A stretch of DNA of 31,195 bases from a virus. Shown in pieces: positions 10,716 through 14,800 of the stretch (positions are counted from its first letter, which is position 1; each line of letters opens with the position of its first letter). Position numbers and translations under genes: made by a program. Under the pieces are notes generated by a model. It did not search any database and was not told the origin of the DNA. It saw only the letters and a program-made list of their open reading frames with translations. The stretch spans positions 1-31,195 of IMG/VR virus record IMGVR_UViG_3300033567_000010. One strand, 5' to 3'.

Positions 10716-10819
10716 GTCTCTAAAAACCTCCGACGATTTTCAATTTTTTTGGTCCACGCAAAATTGAGGTTACCGTTGCGGTCTCCTGCACTTATTTTAA
10801 AAGCGCCTACCGGGGGGAG

Positions 10820-11506
10820 TCATGCGCGGTATCGCTCGAACCATGTATGGATGTATCCTTCATACTCGTCCTGCCGGTACCGCAGTCGTTCGTCCATACG
10901 CAATCGACTCAGGCACTCGTCTGCCATGGCATCACAGTACACCACCTCTGCACCTGTCTCCGCTATCGTCTGTTCTCGTTGGTGTTTATCCGCATACCCG
11001 CCGACTATCCAAGCATTGTGCCACTTGCCGTAGCGTGTGCGGATACTGTCTAACAGTTGGTTCTGCAGACTCCGCACGATGGGCAACAACGCATCGGGTT
11101 TATCATAGTCCGGTAGCATCGTGATGCTGGCATACAGCAGATTGAGGTCGATGACAATATCGCCACGCCCCTTATTTTGTTGGACGTATGTACTCTTACC
11201 AGATAGTGGCGGTCCATAGACCAGATAGACTTGTCTGCCTGTGTACTCGTATCCGAATCGCTTGTGCTCTCGGTCGTGGCAATCACGACAGACTAAACTA
11301 ATCTTCTCCGGATTCAGCGATACGTTATAGTCTTGTACATTCTCCGGCGTCAACTCTGTTTCGTGATGGCCAATTAACTCGATAGTGTTTGCGATAATCC
11401 GGTGACACCGCGAACATACTGGACCACGTTCTTGTATCAGCAGCATTCGCAAGGTTGTCCATTGGCGAGATTTGTAGAAGTTACGCAGCCATTGGTTTGT
11501 CGCCAT
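10820..11506 (-). CDS. HNH endonuclease fused to a P-loop NTPase/kinase-like domain
   Basis: A 228-residue two-domain protein. Residues 1-90 are an HNH nuclease: zinc-binding C31xxC34, the metal-binding HH47-48, N65, and C73xxCH77. Residues 92-228 are a P-loop domain: YLVYGPPLSGKST with Walker A at 98-106, then DIVIDLNLLYASI, like the zeta-toxin/polynucleotide-kinase superfamily. HNH proteins next to terminases assist cos cleavage in HK97-type phages; the kinase-like half is less common, and what it phosphorylates is unknown. I chose ATG 11506, which overlaps the previous stop as TAATG; an in-frame ATG at 11545 lies inside the upstream gene. Confidence 0.85.
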   Translation of the reverse strand: MATNQWLRNFYKSRQWTTLRMLLIQERGPVCSRCHRIIANTIELIGHHETELTPENVQDYNVSLNPEKISLVCRDCHDREHKRFGYEYTGRQVYLVYGPPLSGKSTYVQQNKGRGDIVIDLNLLYASITMLPDYDKPDALLPIVRSLQNQLLDSIRTRYGKWHNAWIVGGYADKHQREQTIAETGAEVVYCDAMADECLSRLRMDERLRYRQDEYEGYIHTWFERYRA

Positions 11507-11970
11507 TAGGTCCACGCTTTCTGTTCTTCGAGTTCCTTGCGCCATTCAACCATTTGTCGTTCGAGGTCCATCTTCATCGGTTCATTGGACCAATTTCCTT
11601 TATCCTTATTCTTCAACAGGATGAAGCAAGCAGCCACATCGGGCGGTAAATGCCTCTTTGTGGTCTCTGTGTATTTGGTAAGTCCGGTCTCTGAATCCTT
11701 GAAGTATGTTTTTGTCTCTTCGTATTCGTAACCAAGTGCACGTCTGAACAGTGCGTTCTCGACTTCTGCCACAGCAACGGCTTTGCCCTTTTTTAGGGTC
11801 TCCGATAACTCTTGATACGCCGCTACATACGTACGGAAAGTCGAAACACCAACGCCGAGGTTCTTTGCAATCTGGTCTTGCGTGAGTCCTTCACGAGTCC
11901 ACTTCTCGATGGATGGGAACTTAGGCATCACTAGAGATTCGTAATTGCTGTGTCGACCGCCTTTTCCCAT
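11506..11970 (-). CDS. Homeodomain-like HTH protein, small-terminase/transposase-like
   Basis: A 154-residue protein with an N-terminal helix-turn-helix (SIEKWTREGLTQDQIAKNLG and VGVSTFRTYVAAYQELSETL), followed by EVENALFRRALGYEYEE and PPDVAACFILLKNKDKGNWS. Databases often label this phage family transposase, but it has no catalytic domain; it resembles small terminase DNA-binding domains. It is the first gene of the late operon. The ATG at 11970 has AGGAGG at a spacing of 7; the same frame is open further upstream to 12153, but that part is the structured leader and has no start signal. It may help recognise the packaging site or be a second terminase-like factor. Confidence 0.8.
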   Translation of the reverse strand: MGKGGRHSNYESLVMPKFPSIEKWTREGLTQDQIAKNLGVGVSTFRTYVAAYQELSETLKKGKAVAVAEVENALFRRALGYEYEETKTYFKDSETGLTKYTETTKRHLPPDVAACFILLKNKDKGNWSNEPMKMDLERQMVEWRKELEEQKAWT

Positions 11971-11985
11971 GCCATCGCCTCCTAG

Positions 11986-12062
11986 TTTTTCATGTGCACT
12001 CGTGGAGGTGCGAGAATTGTGCTGTCTCGCAAAAGTTATCCTCCATGGCTGCACATGAAAAA
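11986..12062 (-). ncRNA. 77-nt nested hairpin in the late-operon leader
   Basis: Three stacked stems fold into one long hairpin. Outer: TTTTTCATGTGCA (11986-11998) with TGCACATGAAAAA (12050-12062), 13 perfect pairs. Middle: 12001-12008 with 12040-12047, 8 pairs including one wobble pair. Inner: TGCGAGA (12009-12015) with TCTCGCA (12025-12031), closing a 9-base loop. An 8-base bulge (12032-12039) lies on one side. It is transcribed leftward between a promoter and the AGGAGG of the first late gene. It does not cover that ribosome site and has no T tract after it, so it is not a simple terminator. It could be a regulatory RNA, an RNA stabiliser or a protein-binding DNA site. Confidence 0.6.
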
Positions 12063-12082
12063 GACCACCCTCGCGGATGGCC
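12058..12082 (-). terminator. Terminator/attenuator hairpin in the late leader
   Basis: On the minus strand GGCCATCC, a GCGA loop and GGGTGGTC form an 8-bp stem with two wobble pairs, immediately followed by five T. It lies about 40-65 nt after the predicted start of the promoter at 12131-12160 and ahead of the late genes. It would therefore stop most transcripts unless antitermination or readthrough occurs. Its T tract is also the outer strand of the following long hairpin. Confidence 0.7.
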
Positions 12083-12130
12083 TTGAAATGTAATCTTTTT
12101 GGTTGTGGGCAGTTTTTGAACCACAGGTGA

Positions 12131-12160
12131 ATTTTACCCCTGTTTACTGCCAACCGTCAA
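12131..12160 (-). promoter_or_regulatory. Candidate late promoter (sigma-A type)
   Basis: On the minus strand TTGACG (12155-12160) and TAAAAT (12131-12136) are separated by 18 bases, a close match to the housekeeping consensus. Transcription would start near 12123 and read into the terminator, the long hairpin and the packaging genes. The ArpU-type regulator gene ends 60 bases upstream, and a tandem Spo0A-box-like pair lies 40 bases upstream of the -35 element. Confidence 0.65.
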
Positions 12161-12200
12161 GTGCTTTGCGCCCAATCACGGCATAGCATAACTAAAATTT

Positions 12201-12217
12201 TTCGACAGGCATCGACA
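12201..12217 (-). promoter_or_regulatory. Tandem Spo0A-box-like sites upstream of the late promoter
   Basis: The minus strand reads TGTCGATGCCTGTCGAA: a perfect 0A box (TGTCGAA) and a one-mismatch copy (TGTCGAT), head to tail at a 10-bp period. Head-to-tail 10-bp repeats are the arrangement bound by Spo0A effector-domain dimers. The pair is centred about 85 bases before the predicted late start. The window encodes a Spo0A-C-like protein at 13040-13417. Binding is inference. Confidence 0.45.
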
Positions 12218-12222
12218 ATATG

Positions 12223-12678
12223 CTATTTAGTCCATATTTGTATAGCATTTAGGTCTTTTGCTAATCGCGATAAAGCTAGTGCTTTTTGTCGCCAATACGT
12301 TCTCCATGGGATTGCTAACGCCTCTTTCACGTGGTCATCGTCCGGCAACGGGTCACATCTCAAATATCGAATGCGGACAATTCCTCTCTGTATTTCTGGC
12401 AACCTCCTAACCTTTCGGTCAATGTAATCCACGAAGTCTTGCCGGCGTAAATCCTCTCTTGTAAGCATCCCCGTTCCCGACAATCCCGCAGGTCCAGAAT
12501 GGTGTACCGGGAACACCCTGATTAAGTCCGGGTCACGGGCGTTAGCATAGCCCTTCTTGGCCTTAATTGGCTCCTTGTGGTCCACTCGTTCCTGCGCTAA
12601 GTAAGACGTGCAAATTCGATAGCACTGAAAGATTTCCTGTAATGTGTTTCTTGTCGCAATCTCCCCCACCGTCGTCAC
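12223..12678 (-). CDS. ArpU-family late transcription regulator (sigma region 4-like)
   Basis: A 151-residue protein with a C-terminal half like sigma factor region 4: RRLPEIQRGIVRIRYLRCD, a short acidic linker, then VKEALAIPWRTYWRQKALAL as the helix-turn-helix and SRLAKDLNAIQIW. This layout is that of ArpU/RinA-type phage regulators that switch on late genes. The N-terminal half (YRICTSYLAQERVDHKEPIK, HSGPAGLSGTG) is typical of shorter Firmicute homologues. It is the last early gene and lies just before the late promoter, which is its likely target. The start is taken as GTG at 12678; the ribosome site is weak and a GTG three codons later is also possible. Confidence 0.8.
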   Translation of the reverse strand: MTTVGEIATRNTLQEIFQCYRICTSYLAQERVDHKEPIKAKKGYANARDPDLIRVFPVHHSGPAGLSGTGMLTREDLRRQDFVDYIDRKVRRLPEIQRGIVRIRYLRCDPLPDDDHVKEALAIPWRTYWRQKALALSRLAKDLNAIQIWTK

Positions 12679-12692
12679 CGCCCGTTCTTTGT

Positions 12693-13043
12693 CTACACCA
12701 ACAAACCGTCATAAGTACGGGCGATTCGGAATTCCACACGATCGATCAACTCAACCTTCTCCGGGTAACAGAGGATCGGGATTCCGAGATGGTGCGCTAT
12801 TGCGATTTCTAGTCTTGCACCTTTTGACTCCTGCCAGCCAGGCAGCACGATAACCGTGTCGCAACGCAACAGGTGCTCAACGCCTTTCATGTATTCAGCC
12901 CAGCTAGAGTCTTCGAGAGACACCGTAGCCGGGTTCTCAACCTCATAACCGTCTGACTGTAGCTTTGCGGCCATCTCGTGGAACGCTGCGCGATTGTAAT
13001 TCTCATATCCGGTCATGGGGCCTGAGATATAAACACGTTTCAG
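12693..13043 (-). CDS. DUF4406 nucleoside 2-deoxyribosyltransferase-like protein (probable CTG start)
   Basis: A 116-residue Rossmann-like protein related to nucleoside 2-deoxyribosyltransferases: MKRVYISGPMTGYENYNRAA at the start, CDTVIVLPGWQESKGARLE near residue 62, then AIAHHLGIPILCY. The family's first strand and nucleotide-site loop (VYISGPMTG) lie upstream of the first ATG (13016). The only good start is a CTG at 13041-13043, with AGAGGTG at a spacing of 7 and overlapping the previous TGA as CTGA. Starting at 13016 would remove the first strand and the active-site loop. The substrate is unknown; a role in nucleotide metabolism during infection is likely. Confidence 0.8.
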   Translation of the reverse strand: MKRVYISGPMTGYENYNRAAFHEMAAKLQSDGYEVENPATVSLEDSSWAEYMKGVEHLLRCDTVIVLPGWQESKGARLEIAIAHHLGIPILCYPEKVELIDRVEFRIARTYDGLLV

Positions 13044-13417
13044 CGTTCGTCACCTCTAACTTTGCGCGTGACAACCTGCAACTCAAGGGCTAAGCGCGCG
13101 ATAAAACTCCTGTTCATTGGCGGGTTAGCCCGCGTACACATTGGGAACAACTCTCTAAGCTCATCTCTGTTTCCGTGGACCCATGTTTCGCGGATGGCAT
13201 GCCGTATGTTACGTTCCACGCGCGGCAGGGTCGACTTGAATCGTTTGGCGACAACTGGGTATATCTCTTTGCTCAAAGAGCAATTTGCTTCCGTGCAATC
13301 GTGGGCAATTGTAAGCGCCACGCCCAGCATCTTATATCCGGTAAAAGGTGTTGGCACCCCAAGTCGGTTCAGTAAAACTCTTGCCTGGATTTCAACGTCA
13401 ATTTCGGTCATTTGCAT
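13040..13417 (-). CDS. Stand-alone Spo0A C-terminal (effector) domain-like regulator
   Basis: A protein of about 125 residues that aligns along most of its length with the DNA-binding domain of the sporulation regulator Spo0A: LGVPTPFTGYKMLGVALTIA, CSLSKEIYPVVAKRFKST, RVERNIRHAIRETWVHGN (the Spo0A recognition-helix region), LRELFPMCT and PPMNRSFIARLALELQ. It has no receiver domain, so it would not need phosphorylation. Known Spo0A binds TGTCGAA boxes; such sites occur near three candidate promoters in this window. Start: ATG 13417 lies 10 bases after GGGAG; a GTG at 13426 overlapping the helicase stop is too close to it. It lies in the early operon just before the DUF4406 and ArpU genes. Confidence 0.85.
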   Translation of the reverse strand: MQMTEIDVEIQARVLLNRLGVPTPFTGYKMLGVALTIAHDCTEANCSLSKEIYPVVAKRFKSTLPRVERNIRHAIRETWVHGNRDELRELFPMCTRANPPMNRSFIARLALELQVVTRKVRGDER

Positions 13418-13422
13418 ATTCT

Positions 13423-14800
13423 TCACGCTCCCTTTACTCGTTCGATTCTTGCTTTCAAGGCCTCCATCAGTCCGTCTTGCAAACTGCCTTTATTCTCAAG
13501 TGCTCTGATGACGTCTTCATCGACGCCGCCTTCGACCACCAAGTGGTGGATAATCACTTTCTCGGTTTGCCCCTGTCGATGCAATCTTTTATTGGCCTGC
13601 TGATAAAGTTCAAGGCTCCAATTCAAGCCGAACCAAATCACGTGATTACCACCTTGTTGCAGGTTCAGACCGTAGGCCGCACTTGCCGGATGCGCCAAAA
13701 GAATGTCGATTTGTTTGTTGTTCCAGTCGTCCTCGTCCTGCGGTACTTTTAGCACCCGTACTCGCAGGCCAGACCCGCCTAAAGCCTTTTGGATCCGGGA
13801 CAGGTCGTGTTGAAAGCTGTAAAACACCAATGCAGGAGAACCGTTCAACCCCTCAACCAGCTCTGTGAAGGCCTCAATCTTGCATTTGTGAATATCGATG
13901 ACGTTGCGCTGCTCGTCGTACACCGCACCGTTACACAATTGCAGTAGTTTGTTGGTCAACACTGCAGCACTTCCGGCGTCAATCGTCGTTTCATCAATCT
14001 GCAGCAACATCTCTTTCTCAAGAGACCGGTATGACTCTGCTGCCTTGCCGTCCAACACCACTGGCACTGTCACATATGGCACGTCAGGTAGCTGTAGGTA
14101 GTCCTCCGCTTTCATGCTCACACAGATGTCGCCGATTAACTGCCGGATAGTTTCGTCCGCGCCAGGCTTTAATGCGTAAGTGAAAACTCGGTCACGGTCA
14201 CGTTGGTCTGGCTCAAAGTACCTCTCGCGAAAATGTCCGATCCTTGTTCCAAGCCGTTTACCTTCGTCCAGCAAGTACACCTGCGCCCACAGGTCAAGCA
14301 GTCCGTTCGGCGCGGGCGTTCCGGTTAGCCCGACAAAACGTTTGATGTGTTGCCTCACCAACGTAAGCGCCTTGAAGCGCTTCGCCGTTGGGTTCTTAAA
14401 GCTTGAAAACTCGTCCACCACAACCATGTCGAACGGCCAGGCATTGCGGTAGTACTCTATCAACCACGGAATATTTTCGCGATTTATCACGTAGATATCA
14501 GCTGGCGTGTTTAAAGCACGCACTCGTTTTGTCACTGCCCCAAGCACCGGCACGATTCGAAGCATTTGCAAGTGGTCCCACTTCGCAGCTTCTTTGCTCC
14601 ATGTCGCTTCGGCCACTTTCTTTGGTGCGATGACCAAGACCTTTGAAACTGCAAAACGGTTAAACTTCAAATCGTTGATGGCTGTCAGTGTGATTACTGT
14701 TTTCCCAAGGCTAACCCATGTCCAAAAACAAACCCAGGGCTTCGTCTGTGATTAAACGATTGATACAATATCGCTGGTATGGGTGCGCTTTGAACATCAT
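13423..14800 (-). pseudogene. SNF2-type DEAD/DEAH helicase, frameshifted in Walker A
   Basis: A phage SF2 helicase split by a frameshift. The first part starts at ATG 14800 (GAGGTG, spacing 8) and reads FKAHPYQRYCINRLI and ALGLFLDMG, then hits TAG at 14711-14713. The rest, open from before 14670, contains TVITLTAIND, VLVIAPKKVAEATW, VVVDEFSSFKNP (DEAD-box variant), VGLTGTPAPNG, AYGLNLQQGGNHVIWFGL and RLHRQGQTEKV, all standard motifs. Removing the 4 bases CTAA (plus strand 14711-14714) restores DMGLGKT exactly. About 460 residues would be intact. An internal start at ATG 14670 would give a protein lacking Walker A. A sequencing error is the main alternative to a real mutation. Confidence 0.85.

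Follow-up and report, generated by a model that had tools for sequence, protein, structure and literature searches.

A terminator and a large hairpin behind the late promoter of a temperate phage suggest a gate on late transcription

RESULTS

Organization of the late leader

We analysed the leader of the late operon in a virus sequence of 31,195 nucleotides (nt), IMG/VR record IMGVR_UViG_3300033567_000010, called here the window in its whole length, in which an intrinsic terminator and a 77-nt hairpin stand between a promoter and the first late gene. The whole leader lies on the minus strand of this 31-kb record, as do all features given window coordinates below, and along that strand the order is a gene of the ArpU family, the promoter, the terminator, the hairpin, a Shine-Dalgarno sequence and the first late gene. 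It is best read as a leader through which a temperate phage with Firmicutes-type genes controls its late operon.

The promoter, TTGACG-18-TAAAAT (12131-12160), agrees with the consensus at 10 of 12 positions. Since consensus matches in the leader region occur at the level of chance (four found for 4.0 expected), support for this promoter comes from its conservation, both hexamers being kept in a close relative (see below). Between the transcription start site (TSS), placed from the position of the -10 element, and the terminator lies a short leader (12085-12124) in which folding predicts a small UGUGG/CCACA hairpin. The terminator itself (12058-12084) begins 46 nt past the -10 element and consists of a 10-bp stem with a GCGA loop (12084-12061) followed by a T tract reaching 12058. 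The near-consensus promoter and the terminator behind it, which an earlier reading of these letters (the original prediction) had pointed out, are therefore both upheld.

The nested hairpin (11986-12062), located in the 5' untranslated region (UTR) of the late mRNA, has a predicted folding energy of -36.0 kcal/mol. It had been described as 13, 8 and 7 stacked pairs; on the sense strand the outer stem of 13 bp and the inner stem of 7 bp are as described, whereas the middle one comprises 6 bp, a mismatch and one isolated pair. As had also been proposed, the T tract of the terminator forms the 5' arm of the outer stem. Next comes the Shine-Dalgarno sequence AGGAGG (11978-11983), which the hairpin leaves unpaired (unpaired probability 0.8-0.95 for five of its six bases), and then the first late gene (11506-11970, start at 11970), annotated as the terminase small subunit gene terS (phrog_309, E=5e-37). 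The genes downstream, encoding an HNH protein, TerL and further proteins, are all on the same strand, so that the packaging and structural genes are unidirectional as in the ArpU/RinA/Ltr systems.

Upstream of the promoter, a search for four long direct repeats of the Ltr type gave none and yielded only three short motifs within 12183-12248, namely ATGCTAT with its first base at 12248 and at 12189, and ATAGCAT at 12226, with an inverted pair at 12183-12190/12219-12226. These weak candidates for regulator binding are found at about -124 to -60 relative to the TSS, a placement similar to that of the Ltr repeats of phi13 (-107 to -42, PMC13123087).

Conservation of the leader in a close relative

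The viral collection contains a single close relative, IMGVR 3300033567_000017 (recovered as L002, L026 and L054, and called L054 here). Close relatives of the leader DNA were found neither in phages or plasmids nor in 74 genomes from the order to which the Desulfosporosinus match belongs, an order that may not be that of the host; pattern scans gave L054 alone. L054 is 84% identical to the window in the arpU gene and 88% in terS. Within the leader, each promoter hexamer is kept at 6/6 positions, the segment from 12130 to 12085 ahead of the terminator at 45/46, the terminator at 26/26 and the hairpin at 72/77, while the spacer between the -35 and -10 elements is kept at only 11/18.

All five substitutions in the hairpin fall at paired positions and preserve pairing, which agrees with the covariation check that had been suggested, here made on one relative. 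One A-U pair is replaced by G-C through a compensatory double change, and three further changes produce wobble pairs (G-C to G-U, A-U to G-U and U-A to U-G). Five random transitions would give such an outcome, double change included, with P of about 0.03. From the window to L054, the folding energy of the sense strand goes from -36.0 to -33.8 kcal/mol and that of the antisense strand from -39.8 to -27.3 kcal/mol. Because the sense energy holds while the antisense energy drops, it seems to be the transcribed RNA that is under selection. This comparison of two sequences is suggestive, not conclusive, of a hairpin preserved as RNA.

Folding of the terminator and the hairpin

The predicted folding energy of the 191-nt leader is -67 kcal/mol (z = -5.2), a value equalled by none of 200 dinucleotide shuffles, and the segment past the terminator has a folding z of -4.35. 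When the transcript was folded stepwise, the terminator formed first and the hairpin beside it, with one or two U's contested between them and most of the Shine-Dalgarno sequence left open; the procedure revealed no pairing ahead of the terminator that could compete with it as an antiterminator. As both structures fold together without conflict, they do not constitute a switch. Moreover, the hairpin is transcribed after the decision to terminate has been taken and so cannot affect termination, and antitermination in cis by the hairpin is ruled out on both grounds. The leader gave no match at the curated gathering score to the cis-regulatory and leader families of Rfam, and no sequence homologue of the hairpin was found beyond L054.

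Long hairpins of unrelated sequence behind a terminator also occur in other leaders of the group, namely in L131/L157 and L202, in all of which the T tract belongs to the stem, and in L006. The big hairpin is specific to the lineage of the window, whereas a promoter followed by a terminator is common in this phage group. The claim that no described RNA family has this layout stands as far as Rfam is concerned, but does not extend to the promoter and terminator, which related phages share.

The ArpU/RinA-family regulator

The gene directly upstream of the late promoter (12223-12678) encodes a small basic protein of 151 amino acids, in the position typical of regulators of the ArpU/RinA/Ltr systems, and profile matches place it in the ArpU/RinA superfamily of late regulators with a C-terminal domain resembling sigma region 4. 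The protein matches phrog_248 (E=7e-7), and an iterative profile grown from it recruits RinA of 80alpha and the activator of A118; the NCBIfam ArpU model gives 27.6 bits, under its cut-off of 43.1 bits. The ArpU-type assignment in the original prediction is thus retained on the first two results. The C-terminal half of the profile derived from the protein (A3) matches sigma region 4 with E=4e-8. An AlphaFold model of the protein (predicted local distance difference test score, pLDDT, 79.5) could be aligned with sigma-4 structures, though every Foldseek E-value was 0.3 or higher. When Foldseek was used to look for a Q-like fold, the top-ranking matches were again only to sigma region 4 structures, none with E under 0.3, and AlpA appeared weakly at rank 49. 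Fold matches of this strength do not allow structure to choose between an activator and an antiterminator. Matches to the Q-like phrog_79 in the relatives are weak (best E 0.003).

Two neighbouring genes deserve mention. A DUF4406 gene (12693-13016) is missing from L054 though both of its flanks align there, which makes it a recent gain or loss. Beyond it, a gene at 13040-13426 encodes a protein with the C-terminal DNA-binding domain of Spo0A (Pfam E=2e-23), which suggests that the host forms spores or that the phage interferes with the control of sporulation.

Recurrence of the layout in related phages

We surveyed 147 distinct leaders of related terS genes, including a few from GenBank phages (83 leaders in a first version); the surveyed phages are related to one another, and a script assigned both the start codons and the terminators. 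In 74 of the 147 leaders, the T tract of an intrinsic terminator in sense orientation begins at most 100 nt from the terS start codon. Sense terminators at greater distances upstream amount to about 6% per 100 nt (about 3-12% in single bins), and antisense terminators number 12/147. Clustering by protein at 70% identity gave 63 clusters, of which 35 had a terminator near terS. Among gaps of at least 80 nt at the same loci, terminators were found in 24 of 62 terS leaders and in 11 of 120 other gaps (p=5e-6, uncorrected for kinship). In 37 related leaders no promoter-like site lies between the terminator and the start codon, and transcription of terS must therefore cross the terminator. Promoters matching at least 10/12 positions stand upstream of the terminator in seven cases against 1.5 in shuffles, several of the seven coming from close relatives. 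The GenBank annotations of the Butyrivibrio phages Arian and Bo-Finn give a predicted promoter, a terminator and terS in this same order.

A comparable association was seen at the regulator gene. A sense terminator lies within 330 nt of the stop codon in 39 of the 47 ArpU/RinA-family genes whose downstream sequence was long enough, against 61 of 300 control open reading frames (ORFs; 20%), at a median distance of 89 nt after the gene. Promoters of at least 9/12 between the regulator gene and the terminator number 16, against 7.8 in shuffles. The recurring order of promoter then terminator suggests that a transcription stop, which has to be overridden, keeps the late genes from being expressed. 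The conditional readthrough with an ArpU-type agent envisaged in the original prediction gains support from the recurrence of the layout and from the association of terminators with these genes, readthrough itself being what we infer from them.

Several surveyed loci showed further particulars. In L090, L092, L087, L069, L006, L068, L085 and L086, terminators of one family, AGGCTCTTGGACA...TGTCC.AGGGCCT with variable loops, stand directly past the ArpU-family genes and have promoters ahead of them. In the L094-L117 clade, the terminator CTTCGGTACTTACCGGAG-TTTTTT and about 45 nt before terS are conserved and everything upstream is unrelated, so that terminator and terS move as one module. In L131, a candidate protein judged by its sequence to be TIR-domain-like is encoded at 1481-2395, between the late regulator and terS; the terminator in the leader before position 2495 lies past this gene, and its T tract is an arm of a 21-bp hairpin before terS. 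Finally, six homologues of the window terS occur on six contigs of the Desulfosporosinus metagenome-assembled genome G001, which thus carries several related prophages.

The same layout in model phages

The late region of PVL matches that of phi13, and three perfect 18-bp repeats end at position 600 of the PVL leader sequence (L156). With the TSS placed at about 642 from the published positions of the Ltr repeats (PMC13123087), the PVL terminator stem (667-691) falls at +25 to +49, inside the transcript, and the first late gene begins at 718. The window thus has in common with P23 of phi13/PVL the order of regulator gene, promoter, terminator in the first 50 nt of the transcript and first late gene, the regulator there belonging to the LtrC family. 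The work on phi13 does not mention the terminator (PMC13123087). In 80alpha, TP901-1, Tuc2009 and A118, a terminator is found 23-48 nt before terS, the one in A118 being annotated as putative. RinA of 80alpha/phi11 and the A118 activator fall, together with the window protein, in one profile family, and these two systems and that of Alt in TP901-1 have, like the window, a terminator upstream of terS; unlike the window, they have no large hairpin behind it, and in the literature their regulators are initiation activators.

DISCUSSION

A proposed gate on the late operon

The layout of the window is that of the lambda pR'-tR' system controlled by Q, with which it shares a promoter, a short leader RNA, an intrinsic terminator, the late genes behind it and a regulator gene directly upstream. 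It also resembles the system of AlpA in Pseudomonas aeruginosa, a positive regulator that can be mistaken for an activator and was shown by experiment to be an antiterminator instead, with a terminator immediately upstream of its first target gene (PMC7969949). Because of this layout and of the AlpA precedent, we favour a terminator gate that polymerase passes when assisted by the ArpU-family protein. Transcription would start at the sigma-A-type promoter just past the ArpU-family gene, and an unaided polymerase would halt about 65 nt further on at the terminator, gating the late operon as tR' does in lambda; the layout predicts a small RNA of about 65 nt whose 3' end lies there. The ArpU-family protein, presumably DNA-binding through its sigma region-4-like domain and made late in the lytic programme, would act at the promoter by increasing initiation, by making polymerase resistant to termination, or by both, so that the terminator is passed. 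The read-through mRNA would then carry the stable hairpin ending just before the Shine-Dalgarno sequence, and the ribosome site would stay open. We give an about even chance to this combination of a late gate of the pR'-tR' kind, probably relieved via the ArpU-family protein, with a lineage-specific 5'-UTR hairpin shielding the late mRNA.

The differences from the two precedents have to be considered. In place of a Q-family protein the window encodes an ArpU/RinA regulator with a sigma-4-like domain, which may act as an antiterminator here, and AlpA is an unrelated protein. Q and AlpA bind in the spacer between the -35 and -10 elements, which is the least conserved part of the promoter region in the window; this argues against a conserved binding site there, although one may exist.

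Several observations speak against the gate. No Q-family protein (PF06530, PF03589, PF06323) was found, and the window ArpU protein matches no Pfam family at E 0.05. In phi13, Ltr controls a reporter with just 50 bp past the TSS, and the repeats to which Ltr and Alt bind lie a good distance ahead of the promoter (PMC13123087); since that reporter cuts the terminator short, an effect of Ltr on initiation is suggested. The upstream repeats and the truncated reporter point to initiation activation, and both modes could operate. About half of the surveyed leaders have no detected terminator near terS, and over whole leaders the presence of a regulator is uncorrelated with a terminator at terS (20/37 against 51/97); this is explained by the other genes that intervene in many phages, where the terminator often directly follows the regulator. 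The covariation in the hairpin comes from one close relative.

It may be that the terminator does no more than close the early operon and damp leaky transcription, the ArpU-family protein being a conventional initiation activator and enough activated transcripts leaking past a partial terminator. We regard this explanation as a real possibility, though one with less than an even chance. It accords with the upstream binding of Ltr and Alt and the requirement for Ltr in the short reporter (PMC13123087), with the short T tract of the window (TTTTTC), and with the median distance of the terminator from the regulator stop codon, which is as expected for an operon end. However, the terminator lies past the promoter and would block late transcripts too, and promoters so close to the consensus (up to 11/12) would require little help from an activator.

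Role of the hairpin

Hairpins that stabilise a 5' UTR or are processed by RNase III occur in phage mRNAs. The window has, like these, a long stable stem directly before a free Shine-Dalgarno sequence, in this case with neither a sequence relative outside L054 nor an Rfam counterpart. Because the hairpin sits just before the exposed Shine-Dalgarno sequence, a 5' barrier or an RNase III site fits it best, and it most likely shields the 5' end of the late mRNA, as a barrier to RNases, or serves in its processing.

It is very unlikely that the hairpin works mainly by controlling how the first late gene is translated, whether by means of a leader peptide or by occlusion. A GGAGG-N7-TTG sequence within the hairpin does open a frame of 16 codons that ends on the terS Shine-Dalgarno sequence, but the latter is unpaired, and in L054 three substitutions cause two amino-acid changes in the frame. 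Leader peptides inside the hairpin were rejected, as the frames are not conserved in L054.

That the leader is an RNA attenuator, with the terminator and the hairpin as alternatives set by a ligand, a ribosome or a protein, appears highly improbable. It is true that the T tract is common to the terminator tail and the hairpin arm, and that this arrangement recurs in the unrelated L131/L157 and L202. Against it, the two structures coexist apart from the contested U's, antiterminator pairing and an Rfam match are lacking in the searches described above, and the short ORFs in the hairpin show amino-acid changes and one shifted stop. The proposal in the original prediction that both elements form one attenuator is therefore set aside, given their compatibility and the order in which they are transcribed.

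A role of the hairpin in DNA packaging, as a cos or terminase-binding site, is the least credible of these explanations, in spite of its position just upstream of a terminase-type gene and its perfect 13-bp inverted repeat: wobble pairs make up three of the four pairs that changed, which keeps the pairing of the RNA, on one strand only, and breaks the symmetry of the DNA, and a noncoding block (CCCCCC-GGT ... ACCG ... AAATTTTGAAA.TC, 10716-10819), lying between the HNH gene and the next gene and conserved in more than 20 related contigs, holds the same place relative to HNH and terS as the annotated cos of PVL. This block is likely, from its conservation and position, to be the cos site, and the hairpin is on this account rejected as a cos or pac element.

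Implications for late gene control

The silence of the late genes in lysogens of Gram-positive temperate phages, and their release upon induction, are usually told as activation of initiation by RinA, ArpU and Ltr proteins; the terminator that separates the late promoter from these genes offers a concrete alternative. We propose, tentatively and at less than even confidence, that the large superfamily of ArpU, RinA, Ltr and Alt works wholly or partly by antitermination as a convergent counterpart of lambda Q, a sigma-4-like protein being loaded at a promoter with a terminator built in behind it, and that the window is a variant with a hairpin behind the gate. The hairpin would then be a smaller addition, particular to its lineage. 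If the proposal is true, the whole regulator superfamily would join the lambda Q paradigm, and the terminator gate would bear on the packaging of phages and pathogenicity islands as well as on reporter studies, including that of phi13, in which the leader is cut near the terminator.
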